Source of the DNA: Sphaerisporangium rufum
GTDB taxonomy: Bacteria > Actinomycetota > Actinomycetes > Streptosporangiales > Streptosporangiaceae
Assembly: GCF_016863395.1 (NCBI RefSeq)
Contig: NZ_BOOU01000052.1
Span: forward strand, 1-64,000
DNA length: 64,000 bases
Direction of reading: 5' to 3'
The position numbers and the translations under genes were made by a program. The notes below the pieces were generated by a model. It was not told where the DNA came from. It worked only from the letters and a program-made list of their open reading frames with translations, and did no database searches. Below are positions 50,483-58,765 of this stretch, in pieces. Position 1 is the first letter of the stretch. Each line of letters starts with the position of its first letter.

Positions 50483-52765
50483 GTGGCGCGGCCCCACTTA
50501 CCGAGAACGACCGGCCCGCGCCTAGGGCATCGGCTCAGGTCACGGCGGCCGATCCTCGTCGCCGTCGCGACCGTGGTGGGCACCGCGCTGGCCGGCATCG
50601 CGACGAACCTGGTGTCGAGCCCGCTGGACGACCTGCGATTACCGTGGTGGGCAACCTGGCCGGTCCTGGCTCTGCTGGTTTACGGCCTGGCGTATCTCGC
50701 CGTGCTCGCTTTGGACCGGCCGGGGCACGCCGGTGACCCGGGGAACCCGGAGGCGGCGCGGGCCGTGGCGCTGGAACGGGTGCGCGGCACCTGGATCGAC
50801 GGCGTGCTGCGCCATTCGCTGCACCGGACGGCGCGGGTGGAGCTGGGGCTCGCGGTGGCCGACGGCCTGCCGCGCCCGTGGCGGATGACCGCCACCCGCC
50901 GGCACGGACCGGACCGCCGTCCGCGCCCGGCGAGCGCCGTGCCCGAGGTCTACGACGACCTGGACCGGGCCATGCTGATCGCCGGCGCGCCGGGGGCCGG
51001 GAAGTCCACGCTGCTGCTGGAGCTCCTGGAGCACCTGCTCGACCGGGCGGCGGCCGATGACCGGCAGCCGGTGCCGGTCGTCCTGCAACTCCCGGGCTGG
51101 GCGGCCGAGCGCCGGCCGTTCGCCGAGTGGGTCGCCGGTGAGGTCGGCACCCGGTACGACATCCCGGCGCGATACGCCGAGGCCTGGCTCCACGGCGACC
51201 GGCTGGCGCTGCTGCTGGACGGCCTGGACGAGGTGGCCGAGAAGTACCGCGAGGACTGCGTCCAGGAGATCAACGCGTTCCGGGGTGAACACCGGCTCAC
51301 GCCGCTGGTGGTGTGCAGCCGGACCACCGACTACGAGAAGCTCACCGCGCGGCTGGACGTGTACGGCACGCTCACCGTCCTGCCGCTGGAACGCGCGACG
51401 GTGGAGCGCTTCCTGCGCGAGGGCGGTGCCGGGCTGGCCGGCATGCGCGCCGCGCTGGCCGCCGATCCCGGCCTGTGGGAGCTGCTGGACTCGCCCCTGC
51501 TGCTCAGCGTGATGGCGCTCGCCTACCGCGACGGCGGGCCGGTCGCCGCGCCCGGGGAGCCGGGCGACGGGCCGCGCCGGTGGCTGCTGTTCGACACGTA
51601 CACGGCCACCATGGTGCGCCGCCGGCCCGACCCCCGGTTCGGTGTCGAGCAGACCGTGACCTGGCTCGCGTTCCTGGCCCACCAGATGAATCGCGACGCG
51701 CAGGTGTTGTTCACTCCGGACCGCGTCCGGGAGACATGGGCGATCGACGCCGGCGGGCGGTTCCTGCTGGACGATGGCGCCGGGCTGATGGGCCTGGCCG
51801 GCGCGTCGCTGCTGGCGATCCCGGGCTACCTCGCCGCGGGCCTGCCGGGCGCGCTGGGCGCCATCGCCGTCGGCTCGCTGTTCGGGAGGCCGAGGAGCGT
51901 CGCCTACCCGCCGCTCCGGCTGGATCTGCTACATCTCACCCTGCGCGTGGACGAAGAACGCCGGGAGACCAGGTTCGGCCGGACCAGATGGGCCCAGGCC
52001 GTCCACACGCTGAAGCGCGACTTCGGGCTGCTGACCGGACGCGAGCGGCGGTTCGAGCGCCGGTACCGCATCCGCCTCCATCACGATCGCAAGGTGCGGC
52101 GGGCCCGGCCGGCCGCCCTCGGGGCCGGGGCCGCGGCGGGCGCGCTGTTCGGATGGGATCAGGGATGGCCGGCGGTCGCCGGCGGCGCGGCGGCCGTCGC
52201 CGTGGTGATGACGGTGGCGGGGGTGGTGGTGTGGCGGTTCGCCGAAGCGGTATACCAGGCCGAGCCCGGTCCCCGGTGGAGCGAGGTGCCAGGGCCGCGG
52301 GTGCGCGGAGTGCTGGCCGAGGGGGTGCGTACGGCGCTCGCCCTCGGGACCGCGGCCGGCACGTTCACCGGCCTGGTCGTGGCGCTGACCTCGCTGGCCG
52401 CCCGCGGCCTGGCGGTGGGCGCGCTGGTCGCCTTCGGCACCTTCCTGTACGGGCTCGGCGCGCTCGGCGGCCAGGCCGCGATCCAGCAGTACCTGCTGCG
52501 CCGGGGACTTCGGCGGGCCGGTCTCTTCCCCCTGCCGAGCCGGCCGTTCCTGGACCACGCCGTGCGCTGCCAGTTCATGCGGCCGGCCGGTGAGGGGTAC
52601 CTGTTCGTGCACCGGTCACTGCTGGAGTACCTCGCGTCGCTGACCGACGCGCGCGGCCGCGTCAAGCCCGATCATGTGCACCGATTCGCCGCCGGGGACA
52701 GCGCGCCGTTCGTACCGTCGGCCGGATCGAAGCCGGCGGAGTCCGGCGGCCGCTCACCCGGGTGA
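50483..52765 (+). CDS. Membrane-anchored NACHT-domain NTPase
   Basis: The 760-aa protein begins with two TM helices (ILVAVATVVGTALAGIAT at ~24-44 and VLALLVYGLAYLAVLAL at ~61-77). A NACHT-type STAND NTPase follows: Walker A LIAGAPGAGKSTLL (residues 165-178), Walker B LLLDGLDEVAE (residues 243-253), then VVCSRTTDYEKL and LLDSPLLLSVMALAY in the NACHT-associated helices. The C-terminal ~330 residues hold four to six further TM-like segments (LMGLAGASLLAIPGYLAAG, VAGGAAAVAVVMTVAGVVV, AAGTFTGLVVALTSLAARGL, ALVAFGTFLYGLGALGG) and end with VHRSLLEYLAS. Bacterial NACHT proteins often sense phage or stress. GTG at 50483 has CAGGAGG before it. Confidence 0.88.
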   Translation: MARPHLPRTTGPRLGHRLRSRRPILVAVATVVGTALAGIATNLVSSPLDDLRLPWWATWPVLALLVYGLAYLAVLALDRPGHAGDPGNPEAARAVALERVRGTWIDGVLRHSLHRTARVELGLAVADGLPRPWRMTATRRHGPDRRPRPASAVPEVYDDLDRAMLIAGAPGAGKSTLLLELLEHLLDRAAADDRQPVPVVLQLPGWAAERRPFAEWVAGEVGTRYDIPARYAEAWLHGDRLALLLDGLDEVAEKYREDCVQEINAFRGEHRLTPLVVCSRTTDYEKLTARLDVYGTLTVLPLERATVERFLREGGAGLAGMRAALAADPGLWELLDSPLLLSVMALAYRDGGPVAAPGEPGDGPRRWLLFDTYTATMVRRRPDPRFGVEQTVTWLAFLAHQMNRDAQVLFTPDRVRETWAIDAGGRFLLDDGAGLMGLAGASLLAIPGYLAAGLPGALGAIAVGSLFGRPRSVAYPPLRLDLLHLTLRVDEERRETRFGRTRWAQAVHTLKRDFGLLTGRERRFERRYRIRLHHDRKVRRARPAALGAGAAAGALFGWDQGWPAVAGGAAAVAVVMTVAGVVVWRFAEAVYQAEPGPRWSEVPGPRVRGVLAEGVRTALALGTAAGTFTGLVVALTSLAARGLAVGALVAFGTFLYGLGALGGQAAIQQYLLRRGLRRAGLFPLPSRPFLDHAVRCQFMRPAGEGYLFVHRSLLEYLASLTDARGRVKPDHVHRFAAGDSAPFVPSAGSKPAESGGRSPG

Positions 52766-52852: not shown

Positions 52853-53695
52853 TCAGCCGGTGGGCGCGACCGGCCGGCGGGCGGTGCGCAGGTCGCGGAG
52901 GGTCCAGCCGCGGCCGGCCGGGTCCAGCGGCGCGGTGGCGGCGGTGAACAGCTCGGCGGCGCGCCGGTAGGACAGCCGGCCGCGGCCGGTGACCGGGCAG
53001 CGGTCCCGGGCCGGCGTCCCGGCCGCGGCGCGACGCTCGGTGAGGAACACCGGCCCGGACGCCCGGCCGGCCACCAGCAGCGGCAGCAGCCGGCCGGCCC
53101 CGGCGCCCCACCGGACGGCCGGTTCGGCGCGGATCCGGCGGCGGACCAGGTCGAGGTCGTCCACGTCCAGGGCCAGCAGGCGCTCGATCGGCGCCGCCGT
53201 CTCGTGGACCAGCCGCCAGCACGCCTGCTCCCGCAGCCCGGCGGGCAGCCGGAAGATCGCCTTGAGGTGCTCAGGGCCGAGGACCGCGGCCGGTGCGGCG
53301 GCGGCCGCCGCGGGCGGGCGGAGCCGGTGCAGCGGGTCGCCGGTGATCCAGCCGTTGGTCCGCCACCAGGTGACCGCGCCGCGCAGGATGGACAGCTCGC
53401 GCCCGACGGTGCGCGGGTCGGCGCCGGCCGCGCGCCGCTCGAGGGCGTCCCGCAGCCGGCGGGCGCCGTCCGGCGGGTCCAGCAGCGCCAGCGGCAGCAC
53501 GGGCGGCGCCGCGCCGCGCCGGGACCGGCCGGGCGGCGGCACCCGGCCGACCAGGTGCCAGGCCCAGGTGGCCAGCGCGATGCGGTAGACGCGCCGGGAG
53601 GCCGTCCCGAGGCGCAGGCTCGCCAGGTACAGCTCGGCGGCGACCGCGTACTCGACCGGTGCCGGATGCTCGACCGGTGCCGGGCCGGTGGCCAC
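52853..53695 (-). CDS. Degenerate tyrosine-recombinase-like protein (truncated)
   Basis: The 280-aa protein has an intact N-terminal SAM-like domain (VAAELYLASLRLGTASRRVY, RELSILRGAVTWWRTNGWIT) and the first half of a catalytic domain. In box I the expected Arg of the ETAAR-type sequence is replaced by Pro (ETAAPIERLLALDVDDLDL). The protein stops within box II, GWTLRDLRTARRPVAPTG, so the H-x-x-R and the nucleophilic Tyr are missing. It is therefore not an active recombinase. A good GGAGGGAG precedes the GTG at 53695, so the truncated product is probably made. Confidence 0.75.
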   Translation of the reverse strand: MATGPAPVEHPAPVEYAVAAELYLASLRLGTASRRVYRIALATWAWHLVGRVPPPGRSRRGAAPPVLPLALLDPPDGARRLRDALERRAAGADPRTVGRELSILRGAVTWWRTNGWITGDPLHRLRPPAAAAAAPAAVLGPEHLKAIFRLPAGLREQACWRLVHETAAPIERLLALDVDDLDLVRRRIRAEPAVRWGAGAGRLLPLLVAGRASGPVFLTERRAAAGTPARDRCPVTGRGRLSYRRAAELFTAATAPLDPAGRGWTLRDLRTARRPVAPTG

Positions 53696-53871: not shown

Positions 53872-55203
53872 GTGCCGGGGCGCGGCGTCAGGCTGGCGGG
53901 CGTGATCGGAGATACGGTCCGGCGGCGGCTCGTCCCGCTCGCCCATCGCGACCTGCGGCTGTTCTTCGCCGGTGAGGCGGCGTCCCTGCTCGGCTCGGCC
54001 ATGGCCTCGCTGGCGCTCAGCTTCGCGGTGCTCGGCGCCGGCGGGTCCGGGCGGGAACTCGGGCTGGTCATGGCCGCCCGCATCCTGCCGATGGTGGTGC
54101 TGATGCCGGCCGGCGGAGTGCTGGCCGACCGGCTGGGACCACGCCGGATGATGGTGGCCGGGGACCTGATCCGCTGCCTCGGCCAGGCGGCGCTCGCCGT
54201 CGCGCTGATGTCCGGCCGCCCGCCGACGGTGGTGTTCGCCGTCCTGGCGGTGATATCGGGGACCGGCGAGGCCTGCTACCTGCCCGCGCGCGGCGCGGTG
54301 GTCCCCCGGGTCGCGGCGGCCGGCCGGCAGTACGAGGGCAAGCTGCAGGATGCCAACGCGCTCGGCGGGCTGGCGCAGTCGCTCGCCACGGTGAGCGGCC
54401 CCGCGCTGGCCGGCCTCGCCGTCGCGGCGGCCGGCCCTGGGCCGGTCATCGCGCTGGACGCCGCCACCTACGCGTTCAGCGCGATCATGCTGGCCCGGCT
54501 GGCGGTGGACGACTCCCCCGCCGCGTCCGGCGGAGGATCCGAGGCGGCCGCGCTGCGCGCGGGCTGGCGGGAGTTCCGCTCGCGCGGCTGGCTGTGGGTC
54601 AGCACGCTGCAGTTCACGCTGTTCAACATGCTGGTGTGGGCCCCGTTCCTCGTCCTTGGCCCGGTGGTCGCGCACGACCGGCTGGGCGGCGCGTTGGACT
54701 GGGGCATCATCATGGCCTGTTACGGCGCGGGGTCGGTGGCCGGCGGCCTGGCGCTGGTCGGCGGGCGCCGCGCGTGGCGGCGGCCGCTGGCCGTCGCGAC
54801 GTTCGCCACGCTCGGCTGGGCGCTGCCGTCCGCGGCGCTGGCGGCCGGGCTGCCCGTGCCGCTGGTCGGCGCGGCGGCGCTGGTGGCGGGGGTCGGCGCC
54901 GCGGTGAGCGGCGCCCTGTACGCGATGGTCAACCAGCGGCACCTGCCGGCGGCGGTGCTGGCGCGGGTCACCTCCTTCACCGCGGTCGGCGCGTTCGCCC
55001 TGGGGCCGGCCGGGCTGGCCGCCGCCGGGCCGGCCGCCGACCTGGCCGGCGCCGGGCCGGTGCTGGCCTTCGGCGCCGCCTGGCAGGCGGTCACCGCGCT
55101 GCTCGTCCTCGCGCTGCCCGCGATCCGGCGCCTCCCCCTGGCACCGGACACCGCGCCGGCCCCGGAACCCGCCCCCGCCGCCGGCCGGACCGGCCGTACC
55201 TGA
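53872..55203 (+). CDS. MFS transporter (macrolide-efflux-like)
   Basis: The 443-aa protein has twelve hydrophobic segments and the features of the MefA/tetracycline-efflux-like MFS_3 family: HRDLRLFFAGEAASLLGSAM at the N-terminus, GGVLADRLGPRRMMVAGDLI (motif A), VISGTGEACYLPARGAVVPR and LQDANALGGLAQSLATVSGP. A Pro/Ala-rich tail of ~20 residues follows. It probably exports a small molecule. The start is uncertain: GTG 53872 is given, and a GTG at 53902 (VIGDTVRRRLVPLAHRDL) is nearer to the conserved region. Confidence 0.85.
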   Translation: MPGRGVRLAGVIGDTVRRRLVPLAHRDLRLFFAGEAASLLGSAMASLALSFAVLGAGGSGRELGLVMAARILPMVVLMPAGGVLADRLGPRRMMVAGDLIRCLGQAALAVALMSGRPPTVVFAVLAVISGTGEACYLPARGAVVPRVAAAGRQYEGKLQDANALGGLAQSLATVSGPALAGLAVAAAGPGPVIALDAATYAFSAIMLARLAVDDSPAASGGGSEAAALRAGWREFRSRGWLWVSTLQFTLFNMLVWAPFLVLGPVVAHDRLGGALDWGIIMACYGAGSVAGGLALVGGRRAWRRPLAVATFATLGWALPSAALAAGLPVPLVGAAALVAGVGAAVSGALYAMVNQRHLPAAVLARVTSFTAVGAFALGPAGLAAAGPAADLAGAGPVLAFGAAWQAVTALLVLALPAIRRLPLAPDTAPAPEPAPAAGRTGRT

Positions 55204-55330
55204 CCGACCGCGTCCGCCCGGCGCCACCGAGACCGCCGGGCGAGCCGCCGGAGGCACCCTCACCCGCAGCCGGACCGGCCATGGCGGACGCCCGGCGGCT
55301 CGACAGACCGACGCCCCGCAGCGCGCCATG

Positions 55331-55480
55331 ACCCGGCGGCCCAGTGGCCCAGTGACGCGGTGGCCCGGTGGCCCGGTGGCCCGGTGGCCCGGTGGCGCGG
55401 TGGCCCCGTGGCGCGGTGGCGCGGTGACCCGGCGCCCGGGTGGCGCGGTGACCCGGCGGCCTGCGCGGTGACCCGTGGCC
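55331..55480 (+). repeat. Minisatellite of ~9-bp GGTGGCCC-type units
   Basis: About 12-16 degenerate head-to-tail copies of CGGTGGCCC (with CGGTGGCGC and CGGTGACCC variants) fill this 150-bp stretch between the MFS stop and the cupin gene. It has no spacing of unique sequence, so it is not CRISPR-like. Such arrays can vary in length by slippage. Confidence 0.85.
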
Positions 55481-55510: not shown

Positions 55511-56131
55511 GTGCTGCTGATGACGTTCCAGGCGTATCCGGACGGCCCCGGGGAGCCGGTGGCCGGCGAGCAGGAGGCGCTGCGCGTCGCCAACGAGCGG
55601 TTCACCGAGTCCGGCCAGCTGGTCGTGGTGGACGGGGACCGGGTCGGGTTCCTGCGCCGGGACGTGCGCGGCCGGTTCGTCGCCGTGCGGGAGCGGCCGC
55701 CGGTCGCCGAGGCGCTCGGCCTGCTGCCCCATCCGGAGGGCGGCTGGTACCGGGAGACCTGGCGGACGGAGGTGGCGCTGGAGCCGCCCGGGTACGGCGG
55801 CCCGCGCCGGACCGCCACCGGCATCTACTTCCTGCTCCAGCCGGGCGAGGAGTCGGTGTGGCACGCCGTGCGTTCCGACGAGGTCTGGTTCTGGCATCGC
55901 GGCGGTCCGCTGGCACTGGTGCTCGGCGGCACCGGCGAGCACCCGCCGGCCGGCGGGACGCCGGGCGTCGAGACGGTGCTGCTCGGTCCGGAGGTGGAGG
56001 CCGGTCAGGTGCCGCAGGCGCTGGTTCCGGCGGGCACCTGGCAGGCGGCCCGCCCGGCCGGCGACGCGGCGGTGCTGGTCAGCTGCGTGGTGTCCCCCGG
56101 CTTCGACTTCGCCGACTTCACCGCCCGCTGA
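55511..56131 (+). CDS. Cupin (DUF985-like) protein with an extra N-terminal segment
   Basis: The 206-aa protein has a C-terminal DUF985/cupin_5 domain from about residue 70: LGLLPHPEGGWYRETWRTEV, RRTATGIYFLLQPGEESVWH, SDEVWFWHRGGPLALVL and AGTWQAARPAGDAAVLVSCV with SPGFDFADF. His and Glu residues in these strands form the typical cupin site. The first ~60 residues form a small separate beta-rich domain. A longer reading from 55475 is possible, but it would run through repeat-like sequence; the leaderless GTG at 55511 or ATG at 55520 is preferred. Function is unknown. Confidence 0.78.
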   Translation: MLLMTFQAYPDGPGEPVAGEQEALRVANERFTESGQLVVVDGDRVGFLRRDVRGRFVAVRERPPVAEALGLLPHPEGGWYRETWRTEVALEPPGYGGPRRTATGIYFLLQPGEESVWHAVRSDEVWFWHRGGPLALVLGGTGEHPPAGGTPGVETVLLGPEVEAGQVPQALVPAGTWQAARPAGDAAVLVSCVVSPGFDFADFTAR

Positions 56132-56283: not shown

Positions 56284-57375
56284 GTGCGGTTGCCCAGAGT
56301 GAAACCGGAACACCGTCCCCATAAATACGGACAAGACAAAATCCGCATTGGTGGCGCCATTTATGGGATCGCCGCGGAAATCACCGACCCGGACGGTTTC
56401 GCCTGGGCCGCACTCAACATCATGGACGGCACCCGGACCCAGCGGGAGATCGCCGGCCATCTGCACGATCGTTTCCCCGGTCTAAGCGTGGACGCCGCGC
56501 AGCGGATCGTCGACCTGCTGGTGGGGTCGGGATACGTCGAGGACGCCGCCGCCACTCCGCCCGGCGAGCTGAGCGCCACCGAGCAGGAGCGATACTCGCG
56601 CAACATGGCCTTCTTCCGCCGGGTCGACCTGCGGCCGCGCCCGCACGGCTGGGACGCCCAGATCCGCCTCAAGCGGGCCCGGGTACTCGTCCTCGGGCTG
56701 GGCGGCACCGGCAGCCACGCCGCCTGGGCGCTGGCCGCCTGCGGCGTGGGCACCCTGCACTGCGTCGACCGCGACGTGGTGGAACTGTCGAACCTCACCC
56801 GCCAGTCGCTGTACCGGGAGTCCGACATCGGGCGGCCGAAGGCGAGCGTCGCGGTCGCCCGGCTCGCCGAGGTGAACTCGTCGGCCGAGATCACCGGCGA
56901 GGTCCGGCAGATCGTCCGGGCGGAGGAGCTGGCCGAACTCGTCCGCGGGTTCGACGCGCTGGCGCTGTGCGCGGACGAGCCCGCCGGCCCGGACGGCATC
57001 CGGGTCTGGGCCAACCGGGCGTGCCGGGCGGCCAAGACGCCGTGGGCGGTCGGCGGGTACAGCGGCCCGCTGGTCAGCGTGGCCGTCTTCGACCCCGCCG
57101 GCCCCTGCTACGAGTGCCTCACCGAGACCGTCGAGGCGTCGCTCGACGCGCCGCCGCCCGTGCTGGGTGACACGGGGGTGATCGCCACCTCGGCCGGCGT
57201 GTCGGGCCATCTCACCGCGCACGCGGTCATCTCCCTGGTGACCGGAGTGCCGGAGCTGCCCGGCGGTTACGTCACCGGCGTCAACCTGGTCGCCCCGGAC
57301 CAGCACGTCTATACCCGCCACCCGCCGGACCCCCGCTGCCCGGCATGTGGGCCCCCATCCCCCGGCCCGCCATGA
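56284..57375 (+). CDS. ThiF/E1-like adenylyltransferase with N-terminal PqqD-like (RRE) domain
   Basis: The 363-aa protein starts with a winged-helix/PqqD-like leader-binding domain (RIGGAIYGIAAEITDPDG, ALNIMDGTRTQREIAGHLH, residues ~15-90). The E1 fold follows: ATP-binding VLVLGLGGTGSHAAWALAA (134-152), VDRDVVELSNLTRQ, the DIGRPKASVA loop, and paired zinc Cys C275/C278 (GPCYECL) and C352/C355 (RCPACG). This domain order matches peptide-modifying ThiF enzymes (MccB of microcin C, PaaA of pantocin A, and TOMM leader-binding ThiF proteins). It would adenylate a peptide carboxylate. A 44-aa peptide gene follows 56 bp later. GTG at 56284 has GAGG seven nt upstream. Confidence 0.85.
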   Translation: MRLPRVKPEHRPHKYGQDKIRIGGAIYGIAAEITDPDGFAWAALNIMDGTRTQREIAGHLHDRFPGLSVDAAQRIVDLLVGSGYVEDAAATPPGELSATEQERYSRNMAFFRRVDLRPRPHGWDAQIRLKRARVLVLGLGGTGSHAAWALAACGVGTLHCVDRDVVELSNLTRQSLYRESDIGRPKASVAVARLAEVNSSAEITGEVRQIVRAEELAELVRGFDALALCADEPAGPDGIRVWANRACRAAKTPWAVGGYSGPLVSVAVFDPAGPCYECLTETVEASLDAPPPVLGDTGVIATSAGVSGHLTAHAVISLVTGVPELPGGYVTGVNLVAPDQHVYTRHPPDPRCPACGPPSPGPP

Positions 57376-57431
57376 CCTCCCGGCGCTGCGCACGGCGGCA
57401 CCGATGCCGCCACGTCGAGAAAGGGGAAGAT

Positions 57432-57566
57432 ATGGAAGAGGCTCCATCCGTACCGGTGGCGGGGTCCACCGGCACGACGGCGGGCACGGGCGTCGACCGG
57501 ATCTCGATCCGGCTGCTCGACAAGGTCGAGACGACCACGACGTACTGCGGGAATTCCAACAGCTGA
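57432..57566 (+). CDS. Putative RiPP precursor peptide
   Basis: The 44-residue peptide starts MEEAPSVPVAGSTGTTAGTG and continues VDRISIRLLDKVETTTTYC with the tail GNSNS. An acidic/Gly-rich leader, a hydrophobic recognition-like stretch (ISIRLL, the type bound by RRE domains) and a short Thr-rich, Cys-containing C-terminus is the normal layout of a RiPP precursor. AAAGGGGAAG lies 3-6 nt before the ATG, a good ribosome binding site. It is encoded directly after the ThiF-RRE gene and nothing else is close on that strand. No homologous family name comes to mind. Confidence 0.75.
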   Translation: MEEAPSVPVAGSTGTTAGTGVDRISIRLLDKVETTTTYCGNSNS

Positions 57567-57847: not shown

Positions 57848-58765
57848 TCAGTTGAGCCGGCGCAGGAATCCGTTGGCGATGAGCCAGCTCACCGGCACCT
57901 CCTCGGGGACCGGCGGCGCCTCGGGGATGAACCTGCTGACCAGGTGGTACTGGGTTCCGCCGCCGGGCTGCTGGAACGCCGGCGCGGCCGGGCCGCCGTC
58001 CACCGCGAAGTCGCGGATCACCTCGTACTGGTGGTAGTTGCACGGGTATTGCGGCGACTGCGGGTTGGTGTCCAGGTTGGTGGGCGGCAGTGCCCGCTGC
58101 GGGAACGGCATGCCGAGCGGCGCCATGAACGAGCCGCCCTCCCCGCCGAACCGGTCCAGCTTCTCCCCGGCCCGCAGCGTCATCCCGGCGGCCAGCACCT
58201 TCCCGTTCGGGTAACCGCCCGCATGGGCGAAGCCGGCGTCCGGCGGGAAGCGGTAGAAGTTGGTGGCGAAGTCCCAGTAACGGTTGAGGAACCGCTGCGG
58301 TGAAAGGCCGCCGAGCGGCACGTAGGGCTTGAGGATCCGGCCGAGCAGGCCCTTCTTTGGCAGGTACTTGGGGCCGAGCCGCGGATCCAGGTTGATGAAG
58401 GGCGCGGTGCAGACCGGCCGGGTACCGTCGCCGGCCGCGGCGGCCGGACGGGCCGGAGCCTGGACGCCTGGACCGGCCGCACCGGCGGCGGCCGAGCCGC
58501 CAACGGTCGAACCGCCAACGGTCGAACCGGCAATGGTCGAACCGGCAATGGTCGAACCGGCATTGGTCGAGCCGGCGGCGGTCGAGCCGGCGGTGCCGAG
58601 GGACACGGCGGAGACGGCGGGCCGGGCGGGTGGCGCGCCGGCCGGCACGGCACGTGCCGGATCCGGGGTGACGGTACCGGCCAGCGCCGGCACGGCGGAC
58701 AGAGAGAGGGCCGCGATGCCGAGCCCGGCGGCGGCCAGCGGCGCGCGCCGGCGAAGATTTCGCAC
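57848..58765 (-). CDS. Secreted TNT-type (NAD+ glycohydrolase-like) toxin-domain protein
   Basis: The 305-aa protein has a signal peptide (APLAAAGLGIAALSLSAVP, then ALAG), a low-complexity linker of Gly-Ser-Thr repeats encoded by 15-bp repeats, and a C-terminal TNT/DUF4237 domain (about residues 190-300). Its motifs are EKLDRFGGEGGSFMAPLGMP, FPQRALPPTNLD, EVIRDFAVDGGPAAPAF and PGGGTQYHLV. TNT of Mycobacterium CpnT hydrolyses NAD+. There is no transmembrane, WXG or PE module and no immunity gene next to it. GTG at 58765 is preceded by AGGAGG with a 5-nt spacer. Confidence 0.8.
   Translation of the reverse strand: MRNLRRRAPLAAAGLGIAALSLSAVPALAGTVTPDPARAVPAGAPPARPAVSAVSLGTAGSTAAGSTNAGSTIAGSTIAGSTVGGSTVGGSAAAGAAGPGVQAPARPAAAAGDGTRPVCTAPFINLDPRLGPKYLPKKGLLGRILKPYVPLGGLSPQRFLNRYWDFATNFYRFPPDAGFAHAGGYPNGKVLAAGMTLRAGEKLDRFGGEGGSFMAPLGMPFPQRALPPTNLDTNPQSPQYPCNYHQYEVIRDFAVDGGPAAPAFQQPGGGTQYHLVSRFIPEAPPVPEEVPVSWLIANGFLRRLN
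58498..58590 (+). repeat. 15-bp tandem repeat in the TNT gene linker
   Basis: About six copies of a GGTCGAACCGGCAAT-type unit encode the repeated Gly-Ser-Thr-Ile/Val-Ala/Gly linker of the TNT protein. Confidence 0.8.

Follow-up and report, generated by a model that had tools for sequence, protein, structure and literature searches.

Based on our computational analysis, we propose that a 363-residue RRE-ThiF enzyme and a 44-residue peptide encoded side by side in Sphaerisporangium rufum belong to a true and widespread actinobacterial family of ThiF-type RiPP loci, apparently undescribed and new within a known kind. The window, that is, the whole stretch of 64,000 nucleotides that we analysed, carries the pair on its forward strand (Table 1). 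By computation, we find the pair itself, an RRE fold at the N-terminus of the enzyme, intact catalytic residues and partner genes that recur in relatives. We further propose, with a probability of roughly 55%, a RiPP pathway in which the RRE-bound peptide would be adenylated by the enzyme at its C-terminal carboxylate and closed into a macrocycle. An earlier reading made from the sequence alone (the sequence-only reading) had singled out this cassette as a candidate new RiPP class; the family does appear to be undescribed, but it falls within the known ThiF-RiPP kind. By titles, starts of abstracts and the texts opened, we found no description of the motif or the family in the literature; a published survey may contain the family unnamed. 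Characterised ThiF-type RiPP enzymes are few and, in the available parts of PMC12250964 and PMC12150305, include those of the microcin C type (E. coli, Bacillus, Yersinia), PaaA (Pantoea), GrcB and IndF (both from Streptococcus pneumoniae) and EnfB (Enterococcus). As these same parts describe, such enzymes use ATP to adenylate a carboxylate, which a neighbouring group then attacks.

Table 1. Positions of the enzyme-peptide pair and of the genes just upstream of it in the window.
Feature	Position	Strand	Remarks
MFS transporter	53872..55203	+	Pfam MFS_1 6.3e-26; kept in the syntenic locus L041
Cupin_5 (DUF985) protein between MFS and ThiF	55520..56131	+	Pfam 2e-48
Predicted RRE-ThiF adenylyltransferase, 363 aa	56284..57375	+	GTG start; RRE ~1-88, adenylation domain ~120-357
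N-terminal winged-helix RRE (PqqD-like) domain	56284..56547	+	AlphaFold2 model and alignment with the PaaA N-terminus
Ribosome-binding site AAAGGGGA of the peptide gene	57420..57427	+	By eye from the sequence
Predicted precursor peptide, 44 aa	57432..57566	+	ATG start, 56 bp after the enzyme ORF

The cassette is real: both open reading frames are present where the sequence-only reading had placed them, and the good ribosome-binding site that it had noticed upstream of the peptide's ATG can be seen by eye. The enzyme contains a ThiF domain (Pfam PF00899, 7.3e-46), and its AlphaFold2 model has a pLDDT of 93.9. In this model the order of the N-terminal elements (strands 4-6, 13-15, 19-22 and 31-34; helices 39-46, 53-63 and 69-80; strand 85-87) is that of a winged helix of the RRE type. 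In a Foldseek comparison of the model with the PDB, the top 24 rows are all MccB, with 363-378 columns and a TM score of 0.72-0.78 by query length. The best of them reaches 2.6e-25 over 367 columns, and after these rows come MoeB (3.6e-22) and ThiF (1.0e-21), at about 265 columns, and PaaA (2.0e-21 over 346 columns). By sequence profile, one run gave PaaA and MccB as the nearest solved structures, and the other ranked MccB ahead of PaaA. The alignment of the family profile with PaaA starts at residue 4 and therefore includes the RRE, which bears out the PqqD-like N-terminal domain that had been read from the sequence; TIGR03882 is matched by 13 of 46 family members at E <= 1e-5. The GxGGxG motif, R173, K186, D231 and four zinc-type cysteines are invariant in 46 aligned homologues. 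Judged by equal spacing, the three numbered residues would be the counterparts of Arg167, Lys180 and Asp225 of EnfB, which are required for ATP or Mg according to the accessible part of PMC12250964. With an RRE fused to ThiF, intact ATP-site residues and a conserved adjacent precursor, the enzyme shows the features of the RRE-ThiF (TLAT) kind, and we predict it to be an ATP-dependent peptide modifier of this kind.

That the enzyme is a housekeeping MoeB or ThiF standing next to a chance open reading frame is already contradicted, and we give this reading practically no weight. The ThiF domain does score with the MoeB and ThiF models, but the best NCBIfam scores are far below the cut-offs (128.8 versus 266 and 128.1 versus 275 bits). 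In a tree of 51 rows the paralogue on contig C70 of the same genome groups with MoeB and the window enzyme does not, deep joins being unsure on account of long branches; the conservation of the peptide also speaks against this reading. On these scores and the tree we reject the housekeeping assignment, in agreement with the earlier view of an RRE-ThiF enzyme with its own substrate peptide; the housekeeping clustering and lack of N-terminal RRE similarity that were to speak against that view did not appear. Because MccB, PaaA and the paralogues of the same genome sit on long branches of this tree, from which the loci L036 and L041 are excluded, we draw no deep relations from it. Both L036 and L041 have a peptide, and the enzyme of either locus shares 73% identity with that of the window; between the window and L041, the ThiF genes differ by a dN of 0.192 and a dS of 0.68.

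We then asked how far the pair is conserved. Our sample of 179 loci consists of a first set of 99 (98 with a ThiF match, plus the window) and the best 80 of at least 508 relatives from a single scan of genome contigs; removal of 21 duplicates left 158. Peptides were sought within 4 kb of ThiF, and 7 of the 134 motif loci were added by hand because the search pattern missed them. A motif peptide was found at this distance in 134 of the 158 loci (again including the best 80 of at least 508): downstream on the same strand in 60, upstream on the same strand in 45 and upstream on the opposite strand in 29. Seven loci have a variant peptide of the Amycolatopsis and Saccharothrix type, and in 17 none was found. 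In a control comparison, 64 of 78 ThiF-centred 5.5-kb windows contained the motif, versus 0 of 78 flanking windows. Among the best-matching loci, 26 of 30, the window included, have a like peptide downstream (25 of the 29 others). The check that the sequence-only reading had proposed, a search for a conserved downstream peptide in homologous loci, thus came out in its favour. Selection on the peptide is evident in some comparisons and weak in others: dN lies clearly below dS against L041 (dN 0.107 and dS 0.66 over the last 22 codons; 0.349 and 1.17 over the whole peptide) and less so against L038 and L043 (0.29 and 0.65 over the last 22 codons). A chance open reading frame is rejected by the 25 of 29 other loci, the 64 versus 0 of 78 windows and the excess of dS over dN against L041. 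No NCBIfam model matched the peptides, and in Pfam 1 of 24 peptides had a match, at chance level (E 0.09).

The family is widespread. Within the same order, 107 of 345 genomes have a match to the first 139 residues of the enzyme, and a profile built only from the peptides matched 76 of 342 whole genomes at E <= 0.01. In an even sample of the class, the RRE domain of the family was present in 14 of 394 genomes, and 10 of these belong to the same taxonomic family as the window. The best 80 of at least 508 relatives, 77 of which are Actinomycetota, come mainly from Streptosporangiaceae (29) and Streptomycetaceae (28), with Streptomyces (22), Nonomuraea (12), Microbispora (5), Amycolatopsis (4) and Micromonospora (3) as genera. 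Of four plasmid matches, we examined two, both linear plasmids, and each has motif peptides near ThiF. Annotation of these two plasmids misses the system, because the peptides are absent from the gene table (PLSDB, an incomplete table) and the membrane protein described below is labelled "hypothetical protein".

In the 17 loci without a peptide, the peptide may lie elsewhere or be too divergent, or else the pair may be separable. Two of them, from Microbispora (L138 and L142, the same as L065 and L060), neighbour the window enzyme in the 51-row tree, which was built without first-set entries other than the window, L036 and L041 among them. RRE-ThiF enzymes of the Microbispora group with no recognisable peptide nearby occur at L044, L046, L049, L056, L060, L065, L066, L068 and L073, and they are possibly served by peptides encoded elsewhere. 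At L133 (G078:C1:579670), a motif peptide is followed by a DUF6879 gene, with no ThiF within the 19.5 kb taken; other Microbispora have second peptides like that of L133 about 2.4-2.5 kb past ThiF. The genome of the window itself has two more RRE-ThiF genes, at C128:1-417 and C129:4366-4776 (L127 and L128), each with a motif peptide upstream and each cut by a contig end at nearly the same residue. At L115 (G341:C29), four tandem motif peptides lie downstream of ThiF and an M50-like gene and ahead of an MFS gene; all four are LECT-type, one with a repeated LDK.

The precursor of the window (MEEAPSVPVAGSTGTTAGTGVDRISIRLLDKVETTTTYCGNSNS) consists of a variable leader, the recognition stretch ISIRLLDKV, E-T-T and the tail TTYCGNSNS. 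For the family, we clustered 139 distinct peptides at 70% into 56 representatives of 20-45 residues. Their motif is IxIRxL[DE][KR]x-E-T-T with 8-15 residues after the Glu (9-11 in 43 of 56), and an alignment of 24 peptides gives the consensus KIxIRRLDKIETTxxSxGNSN. Counted back from the Glu, position -9 is I in 44, L in 9, V in 2 and M in 1 representative; I stands at -7 in 48, R at -6 in 53, L at -4 in 56, D or E at -3 in 50 and K or R at -2 in 53, where the search pattern itself required R/K/H/Q at -6 and L/M at -4. Within E-T-T, the Glu is kept in 53, the first Thr (T+1) in 52 and the second (T+2) in 46. The sequence-only reading had stressed four consecutive Thr and one Cys as the core, but only E-T-T recurs: relatives read ETTNTYSGNSNS, with neither the last two of the four Thr nor the Cys conserved, and we rejected a Thr4/Cys core as the chemical site for this reason. 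The length from Glu to the end is near-fixed (sd 1.4) versus that from Met to Glu (sd 8.0). The last residue is G in 19, N in 16, A in 8, S in 7, T in 3 and another in 3 representatives. One of G, A, S, N or T thus ends 53 of the 56, versus a mean of 34.9 and a maximum of 47 in 5000 shuffles of the tails, and the final two residues are both small in 45 (shuffle mean 22.1, maximum 34). Small C-terminal residues exceed what the composition of the tails provides.

In addition to the pair, the loci of relatives have recurrent partner genes, with neighbour genes called by a simple GC-position method. Near ThiF, an RRE-bearing HExxH membrane protein occurs in 77, DUF6879 in 46 and an M14 carboxypeptidase in 26 of the 158 loci (including the best 80 of at least 508). 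An MFS gene, scored in the first set only, occurs in 14 of 99 loci, the window included, and 115 of the 158 loci have at least one of these four partners. The sequence-only reading had described a ThiF enzyme acting alone on a peptide, which holds at best for the window copy. The membrane protein, of about 404 residues, occurs in 49 first-set loci; in 48, its gene follows ThiF on the same strand at a distance of up to 3 kb. HExxH is present in 86 of 87 of its sequences, duplicates included, and its Pfam M50 matches are below cut-off (0.2 and 2.1e-4). Its model has a pLDDT of 92.1. For its N-terminal domain, the first five Foldseek rows are leader-bound RREs of lasso peptides, weak by E-value (0.07-0.5) with a probability of 1.00 and a target TM of 0.67-0.71. 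For the membrane protein as a whole, Foldseek gave no match at E <= 0.001. The 50 matches listed include no M50 structure, and the protease label therefore rests on HExxH, helices and weak Pfam matches, from which we take it to be a probable membrane protease, M50-like. M50 proteases are known in the maturation of epipeptides and pearlins, as the available part of PMC10885120 describes. In the first set, 46 DUF6879 genes (Pfam 5.1e-33 for one representative) lie within 6 kb downstream of ThiF, all on its strand.

The type of the peptide's end goes along with the partner. The M14 carboxypeptidase (Pfam 6.8e-10 for one representative) is found in 24 of the 29 loci whose peptide is on the opposite strand. 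Peptides ending in G-[AST] make up 24 of 30 with M14 versus 4 of 119 without it, or, counting distinct tails, 11 of 16 versus 4 of 86 (Fisher 2.7e-8, kinship ignored). Asn ends are found in 35 of 45 DUF6879 loci, the other ten ending in GNSNS or GNST, versus 20 of 83 loci without DUF6879; three opposite-strand Streptomyces loci without M14 combine an SN end with DUF6879. In a tree test of these links, which dropped 6 of 134 loci for a short ThiF or a short downstream contig, 8 supported independent pairs differ in DUF6879, and on average the end type changed concordantly in 2.0, oppositely in 0.1 and not at all in 5.9 of them; only 2 independent pairs differ in M14. Since these pairs, which count kinship, give no significance, we treat the links between partner and end as leads.

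From these features, we suggest the following scheme. The RRE of the enzyme would bind the strand-like IxIRxL[DE][KR]x stretch, with E-T-T and the tail placed in the adenylation site. The enzyme would then adenylate the C-terminal carboxylate of the peptide, as E1 enzymes do with the tails of ThiS or ubiquitin, and an internal nucleophile, most simply a Thr of E-T-T, would attack to give a macrocycle that is 18 Da lighter. Roughly half of the relatives have the RRE-bearing, M50-like membrane metalloprotease, which would then cut off the leader, probably while the product is released at the membrane. For the window copy, protease and exporter would come from elsewhere, M50-like genes being present on contigs C34, C76 and C129 of the same genome (those on C76 and C129 partial), or else the upstream MFS protein would export the product. 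We place the activation at the C-terminal carboxylate because small end residues stand at a near-fixed distance and the end type tracks the partner type. The tails of ThiS, MoaD and ubiquitin likewise end in small residues. Since 4 of the 56 representatives lack T+1 and 10 lack T+2, neither Thr alone need be the nucleophile.

The Glu of E-T-T is itself almost invariant (53 of 56), so that its side chain could instead be the acid that becomes activated. In this main rival, which we regard as a possibility of rather low probability, the pathway would be the same, with the Glu adenylated and a Thr, Ser, Cys or backbone nitrogen attacking. There are precedents in E16 with PaaA and in the Glu-Cys link of the GrcB product, and it is with PaaA that the profile alignment spans the RRE; in the accessible part of PMC12250964, PaaA modifies a Glu a few residues past the leader motif FXXLXXRI. 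The two variants with Q in place of the Glu both carry a Glu in the tail, which also suits side-chain activation. On the other side, some Nonomuraea peptides (GPTAWAPSQGNSN, GAAAAPSHGTSN) have lost E or T and kept a C-terminal SN, and activation of the Glu leaves the rule of small C-terminal residues unexplained.

If activation is at the C-terminus, the product could also be something other than a macrocycle. The enzyme could put a nucleotide on a C-terminal Asn to make a Trojan-horse antibiotic of the microcin C type, exported by the MFS protein. MccB heads the structural matches, the window has an MFS gene close by, and many tails end in GN or SN, like MccA (MRTGNAN in the available text of PMC12250964). 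We nevertheless think this improbable: the window peptide ends in Ser, 40 of the 56 representatives lack an Asn end, the precursors have 20-45 residues versus the usual 7, and no MccD, MccE or MccF was noticed among the recurrent neighbours identified. Strict membership in the microcin C group is rejected on the C-terminal residue (Ser in the window, Asn in 16 of 56). The C-terminal Asn/Ser, which had been said not to match MccA, is thus unlike it for the family as a whole, but not for the 16 representatives that do end in Asn.

The thin, often Gly-ending tails, and the M14 carboxypeptidase beside peptides with one residue past Gly, would also suit a minimal ubiquitin-like tag, whose adenylated C-terminus would be joined to another molecule or protein. 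We find this very improbable, as the recurrent neighbours identified showed no gene of E2/E3 type and no target gene, and the combination of HExxH and an RRE in one membrane protein suits peptide maturation better. Returning to activation at the C-terminus, we can extend the scheme, speculatively, to a RiPP class of ubiquitin-like logic. Here the E1-like enzyme would activate a thin Gly/Asn C-terminus, M14 would first trim one residue beyond the Gly (in Streptomycetaceae), DUF6879 would serve the Asn-ending type, and the RRE-bearing membrane protease would cleave and release the product. If this is true, a peptide of 20-45 residues pairs an RRE-binding strand with such a C-terminus. The family as such gives DUF6879 and the RRE-bearing membrane protein a first functional context. 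Because the signature of the precursor is sharp (12 residues), the 20-45-residue substrates can be synthesised and directly tested.

The family resembles several known systems. PaaA and its precursor PaaP (pantocin A) share with it the RRE-ThiF fusion, alignable from residue 4 through the RRE, a short precursor and, as the available part of PMC12250964 indicates, a Glu following a hydrophobic/Arg leader motif. They differ in hosts and in core, which is E-T-T plus a tail in the window family versus two Glu modified by PaaA; the two-Glu core is absent, and no PaaB-type (2OG) oxygenase was found among the window neighbours scanned by Pfam. MccB and MccA share the full-length fold (TM 0.72-0.78 by query length) and the Asn end of some tails, but the family precursors are 20-45 residues long and have a recognition stretch of their own, Ser is the last residue in the window, and no tailoring genes of microcin C were noticed among the recurrent neighbours identified. 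MccC is an MFS protein. The MFS protein upstream in the window is 63% identical to that of L041 and 28-33% identical to other ThiF-linked MFS proteins. From the accessible parts of PMC12150305 and PMC12250964, IndF and EnfB cyclise at the C-terminus and GrcB forms a Glu-Cys thiolactone; cyclisation by an RRE-ThiF enzyme is what these systems would share with the window family. Unlike the family described here, these systems have, in the same sources, precursors ending in NWYFI or WIVI, or a Glu-Cys pair, and an M16 peptidase or radical SAM enzymes as partners. Finally, the ocin-ThiF/TOMM leader-binding proteins (TIGR03882, TIGR03693) also join an RRE to a ThiF-like fold, but they act with other TOMM enzymes, whereas the window family has invariant ATP-site residues. 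No YcaO was found among the window neighbours scanned by Pfam or among the recurrent partners identified in relatives.

The window holds a reduced copy of the family locus: no protease adjoins the pair, and neither the membrane protein nor DUF6879 is adjacent. Six DUF6879 genes above cut-off lie elsewhere in the same genome. The neighbours recognised by Pfam are MFS, cupin, TNT, Aldedh, FtsH-like, NACHT-like and glyoxalase proteins. The cassette had been described as without an exporter beside it; the MFS gene in fact lies upstream on the same strand, with the cupin gene between. Within 3 kb upstream of ThiF, a zone complete in 91 loci, there are 16 MFS genes, 12 on its strand, and the upstream MFS protein may possibly export the product. 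The cupin gene stands beside ThiF solely in the window and L041 among 99 loci; we rejected it as a partner for this reason, and it is probably outside the system.

Further genes lie around the cassette. Convergent with the peptide gene, a gene at 57848-58765 on the minus strand encodes a protein whose N-terminus looks signal-like by eye and which carries a TNT (tuberculosis necrotizing toxin) domain (Pfam 8.8e-31) at its C-terminus; a relative of it also stands beside the syntenic L041. A NACHT-like NTPase gene at 50483-52765 on the plus strand has a Pfam NACHT match just below cut-off (9.8e-6) and a weak match to an antiphage NACHT model, far below cut-off (4.8e-4). A gene for a divergent tyrosine-recombinase-like protein (XerC model 1e-6, below cut-off) occupies 52853-53695 on the minus strand. 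Between the MFS and cupin genes, at 55328-55480, dense short repeats of the GGTGGCCC/GGTGGCGC type can be seen by eye.
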